Positions 322-11,983 of a stretch of DNA of 34,426 bases are shown piece after piece (position 1 is the stretch's first letter; each line of letters opens with the position of its first letter). This DNA comes from Desulfohalobiaceae bacterium (GTDB lineage: Bacteria; Desulfobacterota; Desulfovibrionia; Desulfovibrionales; Desulfothermaceae): NCBI GenBank assembly GCA_021737615.1, contig JAIPDR010000015.1, positions 1-34,426 of the forward strand. The letters are read 5' to 3'. The translations under genes and the position numbers were made by a program. Under the pieces are notes generated by a model. The model saw nothing but the letters and a program-made list of their open reading frames with translations. It made no database searches and was not told the origin of the DNA.

Positions 322-501
322 CATGTCCTAACCAAACTCGACTACCGACATAAAACTTATTTAAATTTAATACGTTAACTGAAGCCCGAAAGGGGCTCAA
401 GAAAAGTACTAAAAAGGTGCAATAACGATGAAAGAGGCCTTTTTCATGCTGCATGTCCCGGTGATACAGCATAGTCATATACCTCAACCAAGGTGCTTTT
501 C

Positions 502-2544
502 ATGAATTCCCCGATTCCCACCTATGAAGAACTGGAATACAAAATTAAAAAGCTGGAACAGGAACTGGCCGCATGCAGAAGAAGCCGGATGCCGACCGGG
601 GCCAGGAAGAAATCAGACCGTTATCTCGCAAAAAAACATGAGCCTTTTGAAAAAACTCTGGATTATTTTCCTTACGGGATCATCATCGCTGATCAAGACG
701 GCAATATAGAATTTGTAAATTCCCCGATCCGCTACGAATTCGGGGATCCCGGTACCCGCAAATGCTACGAGTACTTTCATGATCTTTCCGAACCGTGCTC
801 ATGGTGCCCAAGTGCCAAGGTCTTCCAGGGTGAAACAATCCGTTGGAATTGGCACTCTCCCAAGAACAGCCGTGACTATGAGCTCGTGGACATTCCCTTA
901 TTCAGTAGCGACGGAACCATCATCTCCAAACTCGAAGTTTTCAAGGATGTCACAGCTCACAAGCGTACCGAAAATGCCCTGCGTGAAAGTGAGGAAAAAT
1001 TCCGCATCCTGGCTGAAAATTCGGCAGATGTTATCTGGAGCATGGATGCCAACCTGGGATTTACCTATCTCAGCCCAGCAGTAGAGTGAATTCTGGGGTA
1101 CGCCCCTGACGAGGCGATCCGCCTTGGCCTTGATAAAATTGTCACCCCTTCTACCTACGCCATCATTATGGAAAAACACCGGGAGGCCAAAGCCGGGGCA
1201 ATAAGGAAAAACATAACCCTGGAGTTGGAGCAGGTCCACAAAAACGGCTCCATCGTCTGGACAGAGGTCAGTATCACCCCTTTGTTCGACCACGAGAACA
1301 GGCTGGAGACTATACTGGGCATCGCCAGAGATATTACCGAACGTAAGGAGGCCGAAGCCCTCCGTTTGGCCAAAGAAGCGGCTGAAACCTCAAATTTGGC
1401 CAAATCCCAGTTTCTGGCCCGGATAAGCCACGAAATCAGGACTCCGATGAATTCTATTCTGGGCATGCTCCGGCTGGCTATCTTAAGCGATCTCCCCCAG
1501 AAACAGCAGGAAAGAATCCAGGTTGCCAAAAGTTCTGCGGAATCTCTGCTCAGTCTCTTGAACGACCTCCTCGACCTTTCCAGCATCGAGGCAGGTAAAC
1601 TTTCTCTGCATGAAAAGGAGATTCCAACGCACAATTTTCTCAACGAAGTCGCCAAGGCTATGGAATTGCTGGCAGCGGAAAAAGGGCTAGACCTCTATCT
1701 CAGTTGCGACAGTCAGCTGCCGAGGAGTCTCATCGGTGATCCCTACCGCTTAAAACAGATCCTGATCAATCTCTTGAACAATGCCATCAAGTACACTGAC
1801 AAGGGCTGGATATCTCTGGAAGCCGGACTGTCCGGCACAAGCCCCGCTGAGGACAGCACGGGCAGAACCTCCAATCTTCTTTTCGTGATCAGGGATACAG
1901 GCAGAGGGATCAATGCTGAAAACCTTAAGAATATATTCGAACTCTATGAACAGGGAAGTCAGTTGTCGTTCTCAAATGAACAGGGGATCGGGCTTGGATT
2001 GGCCATTTGCAGAAAAATCACCGAAAAGATGAACGGTTCTCTCTGGGCTCAAAGTGAACCCGGCCAAGGAAGCGTCTTTTTCCTGCAGATTCCTTTTAAG
2101 ACAAACCATGGCGGGATTAGCAGCACAGAGGCTTTATTTTCAGACCCAGAAGCGTGGGAAGACCTGCCTCCTTTGCGAATTCTCCTGGTGGAAGACCAGA
2201 GGATGAATCAAATATTTACCACTGATCTGCTTACCAGTCAGGGGCATAGCGTGGAGGTTGCCGAAGACGGACTACAGGCCTTGGCAATGCTCGGTCAAAA
2301 GAGCTACGACATGGTGCTTATGGATATTAAAATGCCTGGTATGGACGGCATAGAGGCAACCAAACGAATCCGTAGCGCTGATCCATTGTTTATGGATCCC
2401 GATATTCCGGTCATCGGCCTTTCTGCCCATGCCGTCTCCGAAGAGGAGATGGATACATTTCAAAACTCTGGATTCAACGATTACGTAATCAAGCCGGTCA
2501 ACTTTGAGAAGCTATTTGCCGCCATGAAAAAAGCATTGTGTTGA
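502..2544 (+). pseudogene. Hybrid sensor histidine kinase/response regulator interrupted by an in-frame TGA
   Basis: The frame encodes a cytoplasmic-looking sensor of 680 codons. It has an N-terminal coiled coil (MNSPIPTYEELEYKIKKLEQ), a PAS domain at about residues 50-155, a second PAS from about 165, and HisKA with SHEIRTP (His at about codon 310). A HATPase follows (LLNNAIKYT, DTGRGI and GLGLAI motifs), then a C-terminal receiver with LMDIKMP (Asp at about codon 608). Codon 196 (1087-1089) is TGA inside the second PAS, between YLSPAVE and ILGYAPDEA. Both sides are in the same frame and together make a normal PAS, so this is a single nonsense change (for example CGA to TGA) rather than two genes. 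ATG 502 is chosen because AAGG lies 8 nt upstream; a GTG at 493 is also in frame. A truncated kinase half could start at ATG 1168. It may be a pseudogene, a recoded gene or a sequencing error. Confidence 0.8.
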
Positions 2545-2784: not shown

Positions 2785-4890
2785 CTAGAGCGCCTGCTTT
2801 AGAGAGCGAATTCCCCGTCTGGACAGAAGCGGGATGAGCCTTAGAAAGATTTCCGCCGTGGCCAGGGCGTCACCAAGGGAGGAGTGCCGATTGTTGATCC
2901 TGACCCCGAGCCTGGCCGCCAGGGCCTCAAGGCTGTGGTCCTTTTGGCTGGGATGGACCAGGACCGAGAGCTTGAAGGTGTCCAGGACCTGATTGGACAA
3001 GCTAATGCCGCTGCTCTTCTCTCTTTTCTTCAAAAAGGCGAGATCGAAATCCGCGGAATGGGCCACCAGAACGGTTTCCTCGCAGAACTTGGCAAACAGG
3101 GGCAGGACTTCGTCGATACCCGGCTTGTCCCTGAGCATGTCCTCGCTGATTCCGTGAATCCGCACCGCGTCATAGGGGACCGGCCGTCTTGGATTGACCA
3201 GCTGATCAAAGGATTCCTCGCTGATGATCCTGTTGTTGACCACCCTGACCGCGCTGATGGACACGATTTCATCGTGGTTTGCCGGATCAAGACCCGTGGT
3301 CTCCAGATCAAAGACCGTGTAGACGACCTCTTTCAACGAGGTATCGCCCTCTTCAGAACTCCGGGAGGGCCTGGTAAAAATCCCGAAATCATACTGCGGG
3401 ACTCGGACCTCTTCAGGAAAAGTCCTATCGATCCGCTTGACTGCATCTACTGAAGGCAGCTTGAGGCGCAGATAGGAATTTCCCCCGTATCCTTGGGCCG
3501 AGAAGATTTCCGCCTCATGCCGGGCCAGGACGTCCTGGACGTTCAAGACCCCCTCCTGCTCCCGGTCGAGAAAGGTCTTTTTCTTCCAGGCATCCAGGAT
3601 ATTCTCCCCAACCGGATCCCCTCTCCACAAGAGATCTATATCGATTGTTTCCTCGACCAAAGCGGCCACGCAGGTCAAATCGCGGACAGCATGCTCATAT
3701 TCCAGCAAATGCAGCAAAAAAAGCAGGCCGCGTATAAAGGTGTAGAGCTCCACGCGAAGCAGCATCTTCTGCATACTCCCGGTGAGATGAATGGTGATGC
3801 TGGTCTGTCTTCTGGCCTCCTGTTTGAGGATCTGAAAGACCTTTTCGATGTCTATGGACTGCATGGGCCACTGGGATTTGAAGGCCACGGGGAGCTCGGA
3901 CAGGGCCTCTTCCAAATCCCCGTTCAAAATCTGCACATTCTCGCAGATCAGGTTCTTGTTCTTCTTCATCTCCCGCTCTGAGATATCCCGGTTTTTGATC
4001 AGATCATCTATGGAAGCGCAGATCCCGGCCACGTTCTCCCGGGTCCGCTCCAGAAAGCGGTTAAGCAGATCCTGGGTTTTCTGTTCAATTTTCATCTGCA
4101 AGCTGAGATCGGAAATGAGCAGGACATAGCCGCTGATTGAATCGTCTTCGCCCCTGATAGTGACCATGCTGATCTTGAAAAGCTGCTCGGCCGCCCCCTT
4201 GGCCATGAAGTTGTAGACCGCGGGCCTGTTTATTTCCTGCAGGCGCTTTTCCAGGTCATGCAGGGAATGATCCAGGAGGTAACCGTCCAGGAGGCTGTAG
4301 ATGGAGCGTCCCAAACCGAGATAGCCGCAGGGGATGGTGGAGTTTGAATCCACCTTGGAACTGGGAAAGAATTCCCTGGCCTTTTGATTGTATAGAAGGA
4401 TATCTCCCTTGAGATTGCAGACCACGACTCCTTCCGGGAGTTCTCCGATGACCGCCCCCAGGATCTGCTTCTCCTTTTCCAGCTCGGCGGTCACCTGCTG
4501 GAGCTGTTCCCCCACCGAGCTCTGCATGTCCTGGAGCCGCTCCGCCGCCTCGTTGATACTTTTGCCCAGTCGAAGAATCTCCCGGCAGCCCCGGACTCTC
4601 ACCCGGTGGCCCGGATTGACCGTGGATATCAGGGCCGTCTCTTCGGTCAGATGATACAAGGGCAGGATATAATTGAGGAAGATATCCCCGGCAAAAATCA
4701 GGGACAAAAGAATAACCAGGAAGATGGAGAAAAAAAGGAGGCTGAAATGCTCCCCGGCAACCTGAGCCAGAATCTGCCAGACCTCGGGGGAAACCTGGCT
4801 GTGAAAGAGAAAAACCGTTCCCAGGATCAGGAAAATAAGCAACAAGAGGCTGCCCACAGTGAAGACCCAGAATTTTTTCTTCAGATCCAT
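2785..4890 (-). CDS. Membrane-anchored HAMP-PAS protein with degenerate kinase core fused to a DEDDh 3'-5' exonuclease
   Basis: This 701-residue protein has transmembrane helices at about 8-30 and 48-72, a HAMP-like linker to about 130, a coiled coil and a PAS domain at about 145-260 (GVVVCNLKGDILLYN). The region 270-490 has the layout of a histidine kinase but lacks the catalytic His and clear N/G boxes; it ends in an HATPase-like GYGGNSYLRLKLP. The last 175 residues are a DnaQ-type exonuclease with all five DEDDh residues: D528 and E530 (FDLETTG), D616 (HSADFDLAFL), H669 and D674 (RHSSLGDALA). The nuclease therefore looks active while the kinase core looks dead. The exonuclease faces the cytoplasm if the N-terminus is a standard two-helix anchor. 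It has no operon partner: a terminator lies 44 bp upstream. Automatic annotation would probably call it DNA polymerase III epsilon, but a replicative role is unlikely for a membrane sensor fusion. Confidence 0.88.
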   Translation of the reverse strand: MDLKKKFWVFTVGSLLLLIFLILGTVFLFHSQVSPEVWQILAQVAGEHFSLLFFSIFLVILLSLIFAGDIFLNYILPLYHLTEETALISTVNPGHRVRVRGCREILRLGKSINEAAERLQDMQSSVGEQLQQVTAELEKEKQILGAVIGELPEGVVVCNLKGDILLYNQKAREFFPSSKVDSNSTIPCGYLGLGRSIYSLLDGYLLDHSLHDLEKRLQEINRPAVYNFMAKGAAEQLFKISMVTIRGEDDSISGYVLLISDLSLQMKIEQKTQDLLNRFLERTRENVAGICASIDDLIKNRDISEREMKKNKNLICENVQILNGDLEEALSELPVAFKSQWPMQSIDIEKVFQILKQEARRQTSITIHLTGSMQKMLLRVELYTFIRGLLFLLHLLEYEHAVRDLTCVAALVEETIDIDLLWRGDPVGENILDAWKKKTFLDREQEGVLNVQDVLARHEAEIFSAQGYGGNSYLRLKLPSVDAVKRIDRTFPEEVRVPQYDFGIFTRPSRSSEEGDTSLKEVVYTVFDLETTGLDPANHDEIVSISAVRVVNNRIISEESFDQLVNPRRPVPYDAVRIHGISEDMLRDKPGIDEVLPLFAKFCEETVLVAHSADFDLAFLKKREKSSGISLSNQVLDTFKLSVLVHPSQKDHSLEALAARLGVRINNRHSSLGDALATAEIFLRLIPLLSRRGIRSLKQAL

Positions 4891-4933
4891 TCACACCGCC
4901 CTGCTTGTCCTTCGAATAAAACGAATCGATAAA

Positions 4934-4969
4934 AAAAGCGGGAGACCCGGCTTCGGGCCCCCCGCTTTT
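4934..4969 (-). terminator. Intrinsic terminator of the acs-symporter-microprotein transcript
   Basis: AAAAGCGGG and CCCGCTTTT close a GC-rich hairpin with an inner CCCG/CGGG stem. On the minus strand it is followed by a run of seven T. It lies 14 bp beyond the stop of the microprotein gene and directly upstream of the PAS-exonuclease gene. Confidence 0.8.
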
Positions 4970-4982
4970 CTGTTATCTGTTA

Positions 4983-5069
4983 TTATCCCCACCATCCCCA
5001 ACCAAAAGTACAGGTAAAGAGTATGGAGAAAAGGACTACCACGATGAGCCAGATATCTTCTCGGGCCAT
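4983..5069 (-). CDS. 28-residue single-helix membrane microprotein next to the symporter
   Basis: The frame runs ATG 5069 to TAA 4983 and starts MAREDIWLIVVVLFSILF, followed by a short Cys/Trp/Gly-rich tail ending GWWG. The charged N-terminus and about 16 hydrophobic residues predict one membrane helix. AAAGGAG lies 7 nt before the ATG, an excellent ribosome binding site. The gene lies 37 bp downstream of the symporter stop and just before the operon terminator, so it is co-transcribed with the symporter. Small accessory proteins are known beside SSS-type symporters; a role as a stabilising or regulatory subunit is inferred from position only. It is short enough to be missed by standard gene callers. 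Confidence 0.72.
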   Translation of the reverse strand: MAREDIWLIVVVLFSILFTCTFGWGWWG

Positions 5070-5106: not shown

Positions 5107-6885
5107 TTATATCTCCTGGACCACTATATTCTGCTCTTCATCGGCCCGTTTGATCTGCTCTTCAGAGGTGGTCGACATCTCCGCCTTGAAGCACAGGGCC
5201 CACATCATGATGATCCCCAGGATCCACCAGACGATCTGCCAGGACCAGATAGGCAGGAATCCGCCGAATTCAAACATGTTGTTCCCGAGCAGACACAGGG
5301 GGCCGATGGCGAACAAAAACCAGATCGGAACCACCCATTTCATGGCGTTACGCCACTTCTGCCCTTTTTCGGTCGGCCCGTCGACGCTCTGGATCCATTC
5401 CCTGACCTCGGCCTGCCGTTTTAGGGTCTCCTCGCTGTCCTTTATGCCGATGCCGCGGCAGGCGTAGGCAACGACGAGCCCCACGAACAGACCCCAGAAG
5501 GCGGTGTGCAGGGACAACGGGTACTGGTAGAAGAAGTAGGTGATGAAACAGGCGATGATGGCGGCCACCAGACCCAGGGCGGCCCCGACGCCCGGGAACT
5601 TGAAACCGTAGTGCACACCCAGAAGCATCAGGTACATGATGAATCCAAAGGCGGTGGCGAAGCCTCCGATCATGACGATGGCCCCGGGCGAGGTCAGACT
5701 GACAACAACCGCCAGCAGGGTGATCACCGTCACAAAGATGCGGTTGGCCCAGATCTGTTCGGCGTGTCCGGCTTTTTGTTTCTTGATGTACCGCCAATAG
5801 ATGTCTCTGAGGACGATGGTCCCGCCGGTTCCGATATAAGGGGCCGACGTGGAGTGGATGGCCGCAATGATGCCCAGAAAGACGATGGCCATGACCGGAC
5901 CGGGGAGCACGTAGTTCATGAGCATGGGGACCACATCGCCGTCTGTTTGCGGGGCGATCTCTCCCATACCCTGGAGGATCCTGGCGCCCATCCCCTGGAA
6001 TGCGGTGAAGAAGAACAGGGCCACGCCCACGACAAAGGTGGACATGAAGACCTGCTGCCAGGCCAGGGGCTTCGGGGATTTGATTCCGAAATTCCAGAGG
6101 GTGAAGGCGGGCGAGGACTGGATGCCCATCAGGGCGAACATGTAAGTCAGGATCATGACCGCGGTCCAGCCGCCCGAACCCAGCCCGAAGTGGATCAGCT
6201 TTGGCACCTCGACGTACTTGTCTTCAAGCCCCCGCAGCTGGGTGGTGAATTCAGTCCAGCCGCCCAAGGCCTCGGTGGTGATGGTGTAATAGCCCAGAAG
6301 GACGATGCTCAGGACCAGGAGGATGAACTGGATGACCCCGACCCAGGTGCTGGCTTTGAGCCCTCCCGTGACCACGTAGAACCAGACGATGAAGGCCATG
6401 AATAAGAGCCCGGCTGTGTAAGGCACTCCGGCCACGATCTCGAAGAGTTTGGCGGCCGCGATCAACTGCAGACCGGAATAGAACATGGAATAAAGGACTG
6501 CGGCCAGAACGGTCAGCCAGCGCACGGCTTCGTTGTTGTAGTAATAGGCGAACATGTCGCCCGGAGTCATGAATCCGTAGCGTTTGCCCATCAGCCAGTT
6601 CCTTTTGGCGAAAAAGGCTCCGGTGATGGGAATGGTCAGGACATAGAAGGAGGCAAAGGCGTAGGCCATGCCGTCGCGCCAGATCAGTCCCGGATGGCCC
6701 ACGGTGGTCCACCCGGAAAAGGAGGCCGCGGTGGCGGCCATGAGAAAGGCAATGAAGGGGATGGAGCGCCCTCCGATCGAATAGCCGGCTGAGGTCTTCT
6801 CGGTGAAGTACCCGCGCAGGCCCCACCAGAAACAATAAATTATGTATATTCCCAAAAAGATATAAACCCAGGTTCTAGGTTCCAT
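5107..6885 (-). CDS. Sodium:solute symporter (SSS family), probably for acetate or another short carboxylate
   Basis: This 592-residue polytopic membrane protein has the SSS layout. An N-terminal helix (WVYIFLGIYIIYCFWWGLRG) is followed by the YSIGGRSIPF segment, ATAASFSGWTTVGHPGLIW, a long series of hydrophobic segments and a hydrophilic C-terminal tail. ATG 6885 is preceded by AGGAGG. It lies 171 bp downstream of acs on the same strand, and the microprotein gene follows. The pairing with acetyl-CoA synthetase suggests uptake of acetate or a similar acid driven by sodium. The actual substrate cannot be read from the sequence; it is not a clear ActP orthologue by eye. The 171-bp gap from acs has no obvious terminator. 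Confidence 0.88.
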   Translation of the reverse strand: MEPRTWVYIFLGIYIIYCFWWGLRGYFTEKTSAGYSIGGRSIPFIAFLMAATAASFSGWTTVGHPGLIWRDGMAYAFASFYVLTIPITGAFFAKRNWLMGKRYGFMTPGDMFAYYYNNEAVRWLTVLAAVLYSMFYSGLQLIAAAKLFEIVAGVPYTAGLLFMAFIVWFYVVTGGLKASTWVGVIQFILLVLSIVLLGYYTITTEALGGWTEFTTQLRGLEDKYVEVPKLIHFGLGSGGWTAVMILTYMFALMGIQSSPAFTLWNFGIKSPKPLAWQQVFMSTFVVGVALFFFTAFQGMGARILQGMGEIAPQTDGDVVPMLMNYVLPGPVMAIVFLGIIAAIHSTSAPYIGTGGTIVLRDIYWRYIKKQKAGHAEQIWANRIFVTVITLLAVVVSLTSPGAIVMIGGFATAFGFIMYLMLLGVHYGFKFPGVGAALGLVAAIIACFITYFFYQYPLSLHTAFWGLFVGLVVAYACRGIGIKDSEETLKRQAEVREWIQSVDGPTEKGQKWRNAMKWVVPIWFLFAIGPLCLLGNNMFEFGGFLPIWSWQIVWWILGIIMMWALCFKAEMSTTSEEQIKRADEEQNIVVQEI

Positions 6886-7056: not shown

Positions 7057-9078
7057 TCAGTCCTGGACCTGCTTCCTGATCTGTTCCACAATCTGGGGAT
7101 TGGCCAGGGTGGTCACATCCCCGACATCGTTGTAATTGGAGATGGAGGCCAGAATGCGGCGCATGATCTTGCCGGATCTGGTCTTGGGCATGTCGTCCAC
7201 GATATAGACGTGGGCCGGCCTGGCGATCTTGCCCACAACGTCCGAGACCGCCCCGGACACTTTCCTGGCCAGGTCTTCACTGGGATCGAAGCCCGGTTTG
7301 AGGGAAACATACAGATCGGGAATGGTCCCCTTGATCTCGTCCTGCACCGAGACCACGGCCGCCTCGGCCACCTCATCCGCGGTCAGGGCCGCGGACTCGA
7401 TTTCCTTGGTCCCCAGGCGGTGCCCGGCTACATTGATGACGTCGTCGATCCGGCCCAGGATCCGGACATAGCCGTCCTCGGCCATGACCGCGGCGTCTCC
7501 GGCCATATAGGGCCAGTCCCTCCAGTCTGTGCTCTTGGGATCCTTGCAGTACTTCTCGTAATAGGTCTTGACGTAGCGCTCCCTGTTCTTCCAGATGGTC
7601 TGAAAGGCTCCGGGCCAGGGATTCTGGATACAGATGTTCCCGGCCCGGCCGTCGCCGGGCTTGATCTCGTTGCCTTCGTCATCGTAAATGATCGGATGGA
7701 TGCCGGGCACCCCGGGTCCGGCGCTGCCGGGTTTCATGGGCTTGATGCCGGGCATGGTGCTGCACAGAAAGCCCCCGTTCTCGGTCTGCCACCAGGTGTC
7801 GACGATCGCGCAATTGCTCTTGCCCACCACCTTGTAGTACCAGCGCCAGACCTCGGGCTCGATGGGCTCGCCGACCGTGGTCATGTGCTTGAACTTGAAG
7901 TTGTATTTTTCGGGCTCATCGCCGCCGGCCTTGCGCAGGCCGCGGATTGCCGTGGGCGAGGTGTGGAAGATGTTCACGCCGAGATCTTCGGCCACCCTCC
8001 AGGGCCGTCCCGGATCAGGGTAGGTGGGCACCCCTTCGTAGACCACGGAACTGGCCCCCAGGGCCAGCGGGCCGTAAACGATGAAGGAATGGCCGGTTAT
8101 CCAGCCGATGTCGGCCATGCACCAGTAGACATCCTCGGGATGGATATCCTGGACGTACTTGGACATCCAGGTCACATAGGACAGATAGCCGCCGATACTG
8201 TGCTGGCAGCCCTTGGGTCTCCCTGTGGAGCCGCTGGTGTACATCAGAAACAGGATATCCTCGGCCGGCATGGACACAGGGTCGACTATCCTGCCCCAGT
8301 AGTCCTTGAGGACTTCATCCATGAAATAATCCCGGCCTTCCACCTTTTGCGTGGGAGAGGAGTAAGTTCCGGGATATCGCCTCCAAATGAGGACTTTCTT
8401 GACTTTCTGTCCCTGCTTCTCCGCCGCTTCCACCGCCTCGTCCGCATTGACCTTGTGATCAAGCAGCTTGCCGCTGCGGTAGTAGGCGTCCATGGTGATC
8501 AGGACTTCGCTTTCCGAATCCCAGATCCGGTCCCCGCAGGCCTTGCCGCTGAAACCGGCGAAGACTTCGGAATGAATCACCCCGAGCCTGGCGCAGGCCA
8601 GCATGGTAATGGGCAGCTCCGGAGTCATGGGCAGATGCAGGGTGACCCGGTCCCCGGCCTTCAGCCCGGCAAAATCCCGGAGCAGGGCCGCGGTCTCATT
8701 GACCCGCCGGTACAGATCCTGATAGGTAATGTGCTGGATCGCTTCTTCTTCCAGTTCCGGGACAAAATGAATCGCGGTCTTGTTCCTGTAGGCATCCAGA
8801 TGCCTGTCCACACAGTTGTAGCTGGCGTTGAGCCTGCCGCCCACGAACCACTTCCAGCAGGGAGCGTCGCTGGTGTCCAGGGTAGTGTGCCAGTACTTGT
8901 CCCAATGCAGGAGATCTGCAAACTCACGGTAGCATTCGGGAAAACGGTCAAGGCCGAACCGTTCGTAGATGCCCGGATCAGTGCAGTTGGCCTGACCCAC
9001 GAACTCCGGAGGAGGATAGTAATACTCCTCTTCCTGCCAATGCACGGCATAATGCTTGGCACTTTGACTTTCCGCCAT
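7057..9078 (-). CDS. acs: Acetyl-CoA synthetase (AMP-forming)
   Basis: This 673-residue cytoplasmic ligase would convert acetate, ATP and CoA to acetyl-CoA, AMP and pyrophosphate. It carries the P-loop-like YTSGSTGRPKG at 280-290, the DTWWQTENGG motif characteristic of acetyl/propionyl-CoA synthetases, and the C-terminal KTRSGKIMRR. Lys637 in that motif is the catalytic lysine that Pat-type enzymes acetylate in other bacteria. Length matches the family (about 650). ATG 9078 has AAGGAGG just upstream. The divergent neighbour is a Pat-type acetyltransferase and the downstream gene a symporter, so uptake, activation and post-translational control appear grouped. Propionate is a possible alternative substrate. 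Confidence 0.95.
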   Translation of the reverse strand: MAESQSAKHYAVHWQEEEYYYPPPEFVGQANCTDPGIYERFGLDRFPECYREFADLLHWDKYWHTTLDTSDAPCWKWFVGGRLNASYNCVDRHLDAYRNKTAIHFVPELEEEAIQHITYQDLYRRVNETAALLRDFAGLKAGDRVTLHLPMTPELPITMLACARLGVIHSEVFAGFSGKACGDRIWDSESEVLITMDAYYRSGKLLDHKVNADEAVEAAEKQGQKVKKVLIWRRYPGTYSSPTQKVEGRDYFMDEVLKDYWGRIVDPVSMPAEDILFLMYTSGSTGRPKGCQHSIGGYLSYVTWMSKYVQDIHPEDVYWCMADIGWITGHSFIVYGPLALGASSVVYEGVPTYPDPGRPWRVAEDLGVNIFHTSPTAIRGLRKAGGDEPEKYNFKFKHMTTVGEPIEPEVWRWYYKVVGKSNCAIVDTWWQTENGGFLCSTMPGIKPMKPGSAGPGVPGIHPIIYDDEGNEIKPGDGRAGNICIQNPWPGAFQTIWKNRERYVKTYYEKYCKDPKSTDWRDWPYMAGDAAVMAEDGYVRILGRIDDVINVAGHRLGTKEIESAALTADEVAEAAVVSVQDEIKGTIPDLYVSLKPGFDPSEDLARKVSGAVSDVVGKIARPAHVYIVDDMPKTRSGKIMRRILASISNYNDVGDVTTLANPQIVEQIRKQVQD

Positions 9079-9295: not shown

Positions 9296-11983
9296 ATGAG
9301 TCTCAGTCACCTTGACGCCTTGTTCCGTCCGAAATCAATCACCGTTGTCGGGGCTTCAAACAGACCCAGGAGCATTGGCTCAGTAGTTATCAAGAACCTG
9401 CTGCACGAAAACTTCTCCGGCCCCATTCTTCCGGTGAACCCCAAATATACGGCTGTCGGCGGCATTCTGGCCTACCCGTCCGTGTCCGAGCTCCCTCTTT
9501 CACCTGATCTGGCTATCGTCTGCACCCCTCCGGAAACGGTGCCGGACTATATTCAGGCCCTCGGCCGAAAAAAGGCCGGGGCCGTTTTGATAATGAGCAC
9601 CGACCTGGAACAGTTACGGGACGAATCAACCGGCCTCAACTACCGGGATTTGAGCCTCAAGCATGCCCGGGACTTCTCCATGCGGATCCTGGGACCCGAT
9701 TGTCTGGGATTGATTATTCCCAGATCCGGATTGAACGCCAGCTTTGCCCACACCTCGGTCCTCAAGGGAGAGATAGCTTTTGTCTCCCAATCGGATTCAC
9801 TGGGCATAGCCGTGCTGGACTGGGCAAAAGACCGGGGCATCGGCTTCTCCCATTTCATCTCCCTGGGTGATTATGCGGATATCGACTTTGCCGATGTCCT
9901 GGATTATCTCGGCGGCGACCCTTACACCAGTTCCATCCTGCTCTATATAGAAGATATCCGGAACGCGCGGAAGTTCATTTCCGCGGCCAGGTCCGCCTCC
10001 AGAAACAAGCCAGTGGTGGTCATCAAGAGCGGACAACTTGAAGAGACAATCCAGCCCTCGACCCTGCCGGCCGGGACCCCGGTCGAGTGGGACGACATCT
10101 TCGACGCCCTGTTCCGCAGGGCGGGCATGCTCAGGGTCTACAATGTGGCCGAGCTTTTCGATTCGGTGGAGACCCTGGCCCGGGCCAAACCGCTGCGAGG
10201 GGACAGGCTGGCCATCTTGAGCAACGGAAGGGGCCCGGCCGTCATGGCCATGGAAATCCTGCTCAAGCAGGGGGGGCATTTGGCTCCGCTTACAGAGAAG
10301 ACAACCGCGAAACTAGGTTCCGACCTGGAGAATGAGTTTACCGGGACTAATCCGATCAGACTAAAGGACAGGGCCGCCAGCGAGGCTTACGCCCAGGCCC
10401 TGGAGAGCTTGATAAAAGACGAAAACGTGGATGCAGTCCTGGTCATCCACATCCCTACCGCCTTTACCTCGAGCGAGGACATCGCCGGAGCCGTGGTCAA
10501 CGCAATCGGCCGCAGCCGGAAAAACATCTTCACCGTCTGGCTGGGAGAGAAGGAAACAGCCCAGGCCAGGCGGATTTTCGCCCTGGCCGGCGTTCCAACA
10601 TATGAAACCCCGGATCAGGCCACCCAGATCTTTATGGACATGGTCCGTTATCGGCGCAATCAGGAAATGCTCATGCAGACCCCTGACTCCATCCCCAAGG
10701 AGTTCACTCCGAATCCGGACACGGCCCGGGCCATAATCAACAACGCCCTGGCTGAAAACCGCAGCCGGCTGAACCAGGCGGAAACAAATGAGATCCTCTC
10801 GGAATACAGGATACCTGTGGTGGAGACCAGGATAGTTGAAAACGCCGAGGAAGCGGCCCTCATGGCCAGAGAGATCGGGTTCCCGGTCGCCCTCAAGGTC
10901 CTGTCTTCAGAGCTGAGAAGCAAATATCAGGCCGGGGGAGTGGCCATGGATCTGGAATCTGAGGAGGATATCATCAAAGCGGCCCGGGCCATGACCCTGA
11001 GGATCGAGACTAACAATCCCGATATCAAACTCGAAGGTTTTATCGTCCAGAAAATGGCCCGCAGGCCGGGAGCCCAGGAACTTCTCCTGGGAATGACCAG
11101 CACACCGGACCTGGGACCGGTGATCCTCTTCGGACAGGGAGGACCGGCGGCCAGAGTCATCAGGGATCAGTCCGTAGGCTTGCCGCCATTGAATATGAGC
11201 CTGGCCAACGAGATCATTCAGCAGACCAGGATAGCCAAAATTCTCAAAGGCTTTCAGGGACAACCCGGAGTGGATGTCAAGAGCATCAGGCTGACCCTGG
11301 TCCAGCTCTCGCAGCTGACCATCGATCTGCCCGAGATCAAAAGCTTGAGCATCAATCCGCTTCTGGCCGATGTTTCCGGGGTCATGGTCCTTGACGCCCG
11401 CATCGTGGTCCAGAAATCTGCGGGTGCGGATCAGTTGAGGCTGGCCATTCAGCCCTACCCGGAACACCTGGAAGAGGAAGTCAGCTTGAAGTCCGGGGAG
11501 AAAATCCTCTTGCGCCCGATCCGACCCGAAGACGAGCACAGCCATGCCGAGTTCATCAACTCCCTGTCTCAAGAGGACATTCGGATGCGCTTCTTCGGAA
11601 TCGTCCACACCTTTTCCCATTCCCAGCTGGCCAGATACACCCAGATAGACTACGCCCGGGAGATGGCCTTTGTGGCCACCAGCGGCAGCCAGGGCCGGCT
11701 AAAGACCCTGGGGGTCGTGCGCACTTATTTTGATCCGGACAACACCTTTGGGGAATTCGCCATCGTTGTCAGATCGGATCAAAAATCGCAGGGACTGGGC
11801 ACGATCCTCATGGACAAGATGATCCGCTATTGCCGGGATCGGGGGACCGGGGAACTCATGGCCTACACCTTGCGCGAAAATAGGGGAATGCAGGCTCTGG
11901 CCAAAAAAATCGGATTCACGGTTCGGGCCTCCAAGGACGACCCGGAAACGGTGGAGCTCAGGTTGCGGCTGAGGGAGGATTGA
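9296..11983 (+). CDS. pat: Pat/YfiQ-type protein lysine acetyltransferase (inactive ADP-forming acyl-CoA synthetase plus GNAT)
   Basis: The 895-residue protein has a CoA-binding fold (SITVVGASNRPRSIG, residues 14-28), the succinyl-CoA-ligase-like and ATP-grasp parts of the ADP-forming acyl-CoA synthetases (ATP-grasp from about 490), and a C-terminal GNAT domain from about 735 with the acetyl-CoA loop QGLGT at 832-836. The loop that holds the phospho-histidine in active synthetases (SHTGALAG type) reads STLPAGTPVEWDD at 255-267, with no His. The ligase half is therefore probably a non-catalytic sensor, as in E. coli and Salmonella Pat, whose length (about 886) matches. The expected target is the catalytic lysine of the divergently encoded Acs. 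GGAGA precedes ATG 9296. No sirtuin-type deacetylase is present in the window. Confidence 0.9.
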   Translation: MSLSHLDALFRPKSITVVGASNRPRSIGSVVIKNLLHENFSGPILPVNPKYTAVGGILAYPSVSELPLSPDLAIVCTPPETVPDYIQALGRKKAGAVLIMSTDLEQLRDESTGLNYRDLSLKHARDFSMRILGPDCLGLIIPRSGLNASFAHTSVLKGEIAFVSQSDSLGIAVLDWAKDRGIGFSHFISLGDYADIDFADVLDYLGGDPYTSSILLYIEDIRNARKFISAARSASRNKPVVVIKSGQLEETIQPSTLPAGTPVEWDDIFDALFRRAGMLRVYNVAELFDSVETLARAKPLRGDRLAILSNGRGPAVMAMEILLKQGGHLAPLTEKTTAKLGSDLENEFTGTNPIRLKDRAASEAYAQALESLIKDENVDAVLVIHIPTAFTSSEDIAGAVVNAIGRSRKNIFTVWLGEKETAQARRIFALAGVPTYETPDQATQIFMDMVRYRRNQEMLMQTPDSIPKEFTPNPDTARAIINNALAENRSRLNQAETNEILSEYRIPVVETRIVENAEEAALMAREIGFPVALKVLSSELRSKYQAGGVAMDLESEEDIIKAARAMTLRIETNNPDIKLEGFIVQKMARRPGAQELLLGMTSTPDLGPVILFGQGGPAARVIRDQSVGLPPLNMSLANEIIQQTRIAKILKGFQGQPGVDVKSIRLTLVQLSQLTIDLPEIKSLSINPLLADVSGVMVLDARIVVQKSAGADQLRLAIQPYPEHLEEEVSLKSGEKILLRPIRPEDEHSHAEFINSLSQEDIRMRFFGIVHTFSHSQLARYTQIDYAREMAFVATSGSQGRLKTLGVVRTYFDPDNTFGEFAIVVRSDQKSQGLGTILMDKMIRYCRDRGTGELMAYTLRENRGMQALAKKIGFTVRASKDDPETVELRLRLRED

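Follow-up and report, generated by a model that had tools for sequence, protein, structure and literature searches.

A predicted membrane-anchored DEDDh exonuclease on a pseudo-histidine-kinase chassis, encoded in acetate/monocarboxylate uptake modules

One gene in the 34,426-nucleotide stretch of Desulfohalobiaceae DNA analysed here (the window) encodes a sensor chassis of the histidine-kinase type that has lost its catalytic motifs and that is fused to a DEDDh exonuclease domain. The fusion represents a widespread, mislabelled and unstudied family, and its gene belongs to acetate/monocarboxylate uptake modules composed of Acs, a sodium:solute symporter (SSF), a DUF294 protein and, often, a response regulator with an SLC5-STAC-type kinase. 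We give even chances to the proposal that a pseudo-histidine-kinase here tethers a 3'-5' exonuclease to the membrane and gates it by a signal, and that the protein tunes carboxylate metabolism, probably at the RNA level. The features of the locus and of the protein are collected in Table 1.

Table 1. Features of the exonuclease fusion and of its locus in the window
Feature	Positions	Strand	Evidence or remark
Membrane HAMP-PAS-pseudokinase-DEDDh exonuclease fusion, 701 aa	2785..4890	-	ORF (ATG start) and homologues
DEDDh exonuclease domain, residues 524-686	2833..3321	-	RNase_T E=1.8e-36
'YDFDLF'-type linker motif (PQYDFGIF), residues 498-505	3376..3399	-	conserved in most of 18 homologues
Pseudo-CA (HATPase-like), residues 341-480	3451..3870	-	hhalign of CA part 95.8%
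Pseudo-DHp (HisKA-like), residues 266-340	3871..4095	-	hhalign of DHp part 97.6%
PAS domain, approx. residues 146-265	4096..4455	-	PAS_9 E=0.0089, below cut-off
HAMP-like linker, approx. residues 70-122	4525..4683	-	weak in window protein, E=0.076
TM helix 2, residues 49-67	4690..4746	-	hydropathy peak 2.84
TM helix 1, residues 9-27	4810..4866	-	hydropathy peak 2.62
Intrinsic-terminator-like hairpin	4930..4982	-	-31.7 kcal/mol, z=-6.6, U tract
28-aa membrane peptide MAREDIWLIVVVLFSILFTCTFGWGWWG	4983..5069	-	between symporter and exonuclease genes
Sodium:solute symporter (SSF)	5107..6885	-	PF00474 E=5.6e-33
Acetate--CoA ligase (Acs)	7057..9078	-	TIGR02188 752 bits, over cut-off
ADP-forming acyl-CoA synthetase fused to GNAT (Pat-like) acetyltransferase	9296..11983	+	divergent from acs

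Domain architecture of the fusion

An earlier note made from the letters of the window had proposed the transmembrane-HAMP-PAS layout of a sensor kinase. This layout is supported by the two hydropathy peaks, by a WalK HAMP-PAS model that covers residues 36-274 (E=2e-12), and by Pfam matches in other family members, with best E values of 1.9e-10 for HAMP and 1.6e-8 for PAS. In the window protein both domains are sub-threshold in Pfam, leaving RNase_T as the sole confident Pfam domain, and the PAS region matches a WalK chain in the PDB at E=0.016. An extramembrane input domain is essentially absent from the window member. The loop between the two transmembrane helices is only ~20 residues long, so that any sensor input must come from within the membrane or from the cytosol (PAS). 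AlphaFold2, run on the window protein with one relative, gave a mean pLDDT of 35.7, with two long helices (residues 270-331) followed by alternating helices and strands up to residue 477, which is only loosely compatible with a DHp-CA core.

The C-terminal part matched RNase_T (Pfam PF00929) over the cut-off at residues 526-682, and the protein ends soon after this domain. All five catalytic residues had been claimed to be present, and a search of the alignment for the loss of any of them found none, with D528, E530, D616, H669 and D674 unchanged across 18 homologues. Judged by these residues and the Pfam match, the window protein is predicted to be a DEDDh 3'-5' exonuclease. The closest solved structures are the PolC, DnaQ and DinG exonucleases (PDB 2p1j, 1j53, 8zef). 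The fusion shares the catalytic domain and the five residues with enzymes of this type but, unlike them, has a membrane sensor chassis and no polymerase or helicase partner.

The degenerate kinase core

Pfam gives no significant match for residues 262-514 of the window protein, which hold the 240-aa kinase core. Using hhalign, we compared 15 homologous cores with 12 true kinases encoded in the window and near the homologues. The pseudo-core aligned with true DHp-CA at a probability of 99.0% (score 124). The alignment spans 214 columns, starting ahead of the H box and reaching the ATPase domain's end. When restricted to the window-like subgroup, the comparison with the true kinases still gave 97.8%. 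The controls (reversed; column-shuffled, 8 runs; HAMP-PAS; exonuclease) all scored below 20, with probabilities below 1%. By this profile comparison, residues 262-514 are a true DHp-CA derivative.

The motifs required of a kinase are gone from this core, as the earlier note had stated. In the profile alignment the phospho-His position of the H box is E281, the N-box Asn position is L395, and the G1 DxGxG position reads W-R-G-D-P (W422-x-G424-x-P426), so that the G1 Asp is lost; no glycine-rich G2 was found in the pseudo-CA. An intact H or N box, which would have spoken against a dead core, was sought in the window protein and is not present. Across the 15 core-bearing members the phospho-His column holds no His at all. 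One subgroup retains a recognisable H box that has lost its His (L049, LPSMLRSPLSSMHSL, compared with SHELRTPLTSI). The fusion shares the TM-HAMP-PAS-DHp-CA chassis of WalK-type HAMP-PAS sensor histidine kinases but, unlike them, has no phospho-His and no ATP site, and a nuclease replaces phosphotransfer. When the window gene is compared with its two closest relatives, dN/dS is 0.11-0.13 for the pseudo-DHp and the pseudo-CA, and the exonuclease gives 0.11. The dead core is therefore under purifying selection as strong as that on the exonuclease, and is a maintained pseudokinase rather than a decaying one.

Gene context and distribution

In the window, the genes for Acs, the symporter, a 28-aa membrane peptide and the exonuclease follow one another in this order on the minus strand. 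The peptide occurs at the same position in C40, G008, G009 and G010; it is identical in C40 and G008, and its pattern is kept in G009 and G010. A family search with the peptide gave nothing over the cut-off, and we regard it as a candidate small symporter subunit. The hairpin, which lies between the peptide and exonuclease genes, was found by folding and missed in a terminator scan, and C40 has the same kind of fold, of different sequence. Because of this strong hairpin, co-expression of the exonuclease gene with the symporter and peptide genes is not assured, and expression may be partly uncoupled. The divergently encoded acyl-CoA synthetase/GNAT fusion may acetylate Acs. Neither a response regulator nor an SLC5-STAC kinase is encoded next to the exonuclease in the window, and the DUF294 gene of this genome lies on another contig.

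Two further observations concern the assembly. At 493-2544 (plus strand) the window carries a gene for a PAS-PAS-HisKA-HATPase-receiver hybrid kinase with one in-frame TGA (1087-1089) in the second PAS; the frame is intact after the TGA, which is either a nonsense mutation or a sequencing error. C40 (L039) holds a second exonuclease-SSF pair in the same assembly. This pair shares 87% of its nucleotides with the window copy and 94% with G008, and probably comes from a related strain that was binned together with this genome (5% contamination); a paralogue is less likely.

The acs-SSF-exonuclease module was found in the genus of the window, and in G009 and G010 it is extended by an adjacent DUF294 gene (acs-SSF-exonuclease-DUF294). 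A single-domain response regulator is encoded directly upstream of the exonuclease in nine of the 16 Desulfobacterota loci examined (G035, G069, G105, G133, G161, G210, G220, G233 and G242), and an SLC5-STAC-type kinase adjoins the exonuclease in five (G035, G233, G210, G031 and G254). The homologues in G136 and G188 sit outside the carboxylate-uptake module. In Alphaproteobacteria, the order is acs-DUF4212-SSF-DUF294-hypothetical-response regulator-exonuclease in Marivivens, acs-DUF485-actP-DUF294-response regulator-exonuclease in P. yeei, and DUF294-small protein-SLC5 kinase-response regulator-exonuclease in P. denitrificans and P. ferrooxidans. DUF294 is present in 17/17 genomes with the fusion compared with 69/230 others (Fisher p=5e-9, uncorrected for phylogeny). 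The gene linkage that marks a CrbS/R-type carboxylate-regulon exonuclease is thus observed, with acs and SSF adjacent and DUF294 in the 17 fusion genomes. In two genomes of the window's order, the gene for a stand-alone DEDDh protein of 210-240 aa adjoins DUF294 and has an SSF gene nearby. The alphaproteobacterial operons also encode an unrecognised membrane protein of 160-175 aa between DUF294 and the response regulator/exonuclease (L061:4446-4970, L063:4835-5323); a Pfam search with the L061 protein gave no match.

The earlier note had treated the fusion as an isolated oddity, which the survey contradicts: the family is widespread, and its genes lie within clusters for acetate/monocarboxylate uptake and SLC5-STAC two-component systems. 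A scan for related loci gave a single relative. Matches at E<=1e-40 were found in 17 of the 247 sampled Desulfobacterota genomes (~7%), and the majority of these cover all or almost all of the length. The family extends to Alpha- and Betaproteobacteria, with full-length homologues on Cupriavidus and Paracoccus megaplasmids. The Paracoccus/Cupriavidus proteins (e.g. WP_011751332.1, WGR62393.1) have their parts in the same order over ~85-90% of the length at ~32% identity, rising to ~50% in the exonuclease domain, and have the same dead-core positions. Their gene clusters are of the same type but differ in content, a response regulator and an SLC5-STAC kinase standing in place of the Acs and SSF genes of the window locus. 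No published function for these homologues was found in the literature searched. Public records label the homologues 'DNA polymerase III subunit epsilon' or 'exonuclease domain-containing protein'; the former label had been predicted, and is borne by the P. ferrooxidans record.

The dead kinase core is less widely kept than the membrane anchor and PAS/HAMP stalk. L042, L043 (same family) and L055 lack it; the middle of the protein is much shortened in the Rhizobium, Shinella and Tateyamaria members. By inspection, L050, L052 and L056 have longer, CACHE-like sensor ends. As a separate observation on the order, several complete genomes (e.g. G006, G258, G261, G273) have no RNase_T-family match and therefore no recognisable DnaQ epsilon.

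Possible roles of the fusion

A genetically studied stand-alone counterpart is PP_0353 of Pseudomonas putida, an RNase_T protein encoded in one operon with PP_0354 (CBS), which is a target of MxtR/ErdR (CrbS/R); a pp_0353 mutant is impaired in growth on pyruvate but not on acetate, mRNA degradation was put forward by the authors as a speculation, and homologues in P. aeruginosa adjoin actP/yjcH (PMC9927547). Its likeness to the fusion rests on RNase_T membership and gene context. Its partner is a CBS gene, and the stand-alone counterparts beside DUF294 and SSF genes in genomes of the order Desulfovibrionales have the arrangement described for P. aeruginosa. Unlike the fusion, PP_0353 has no reported TM, HAMP, PAS or pseudokinase parts. 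The SLC5-STAC kinase systems CrbS/CrbR and RpuS/RpuR, which belong to carboxylate physiology, are cluster neighbours of many homologues; the CrbS/R and RpuS/R literature searched does not mention the exonuclease fusion, and no paper describing a sensor-pseudokinase-exonuclease fusion was found in the openly accessible literature, subscription papers being outside the search.

In the mechanism that we propose, a DEDDh exonuclease borne by a pseudo-histidine-kinase would be anchored in the inner membrane with its nuclease in the cytoplasm. The HAMP-PAS-pseudo-DHp stack would form a dimer and relay a membrane or cytosolic signal to the nuclease, and this signal may be tied to monocarboxylate (acetate/pyruvate) flux or to energy state. 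In lineages where a single-domain response regulator is adjacent, its phosphorylation by the SLC5-STAC kinase next door would lead it to bind the pseudo-DHp and so to switch the nuclease. RNA is the most likely substrate, in line with the role proposed for PP_0353 (PMC9927547), and its trimming would retune the expression of genes for carboxylate uptake and activation. Control of the nuclease by a signal is plausible. The mechanism is favoured by the selection on the pseudokinase, the conserved modules, the association with DUF294 and the pyruvate phenotype of the pp_0353 mutant. Against it stand the absence of a regulator or kinase gene next to the exonuclease in the window, the DUF294 gene on a different contig, the hairpin, and the homologues in G136 and G188.

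The HAMP-PAS-pseudokinase may instead be a mere membrane tether or dimeriser of a constitutive nuclease that is regulated by transcription alone, which we consider unlikely. The members without a kinase core and the soluble 210-aa stand-alone exonuclease, which fills a similar operon slot, suggest that the sensing domains are dispensable for the function of the family. Against a simple tether, the fusions keep their TM, HAMP and PAS-like parts, the sensor ends vary as they do in true receptors, and strong purifying selection acts on the pseudo-core.

A more elaborate proposal, which we hold as doubtful, is a two-component-like system with cleavage of RNA (or nucleotide) as its output. Here a phosphorylated single-domain response regulator would switch the exonuclease via the pseudo-DHp, with DUF294 as the writer and the exonuclease as the eraser, giving post-transcriptional control of carboxylate transport or metabolism. 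Somewhat more doubtful is that the exonuclease simply erases a nucleotide that the DUF294 nucleotidyltransferase attaches to a target (the symporter, Acs or an RNA end). DUF294 accompanies both the fused and the stand-alone exonuclease, and the DUF294 protein carries CBS, cNMP-binding and nucleotidyltransferase domains, but we know of no DEDDh enzyme that removes protein-bound nucleotides.

That the fusion is a membrane-tethered proofreading (epsilon) subunit of polymerase III is very improbable, and we rejected this identity. It would agree with the annotation in some records, with the DnaQ/PolC type of the exonuclease domain, and with the fusion being, besides the near-copy on C40, the sole RNase_T-family protein found in this incomplete genome. 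However, the score against the DnaQ equivalog TIGR01406 is about half the cut-off (107 bits vs 222.7), and the gene context is carboxylate uptake. Furthermore, G007 of the same genus (94% complete) and G006 of the same family (100% complete) have no RNase_T-family protein, so the fusion is not the replicative proofreader of the group. An equally improbable role is that of a scavenging nuclease for the use of external DNA as a nutrient, as its membrane location and the nearby uptake genes might suggest. This too was rejected: an exonuclease placed after TM-HAMP-PAS should face the cytoplasm, and P. putida does not grow on DNA, nor does the pp_0353 mutant show a DNA-dependent difference (PMC9927547). 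Least probable of all is a sensor kinase in decay that was fused by chance, a pseudogene reading that the lost kinase motifs might invite but that we rejected on the conservation of the architecture across phyla, the invariant DEDDh residues and the low dN/dS in both dead core and nuclease.

For the preferred reading of a signal-gated nuclease, the conserved response regulator beside the exonuclease makes the gating idea directly testable. The family is linked to acetate/pyruvate uptake modules, and for one of these, that of P. putida PP_0353, a growth phenotype on carboxylates is known but unexplained. Phosphotransfer is the usual output of a histidine-kinase chassis. A nuclease on a pseudokinase that has been selected for would link a membrane signal directly to the decay of RNA.
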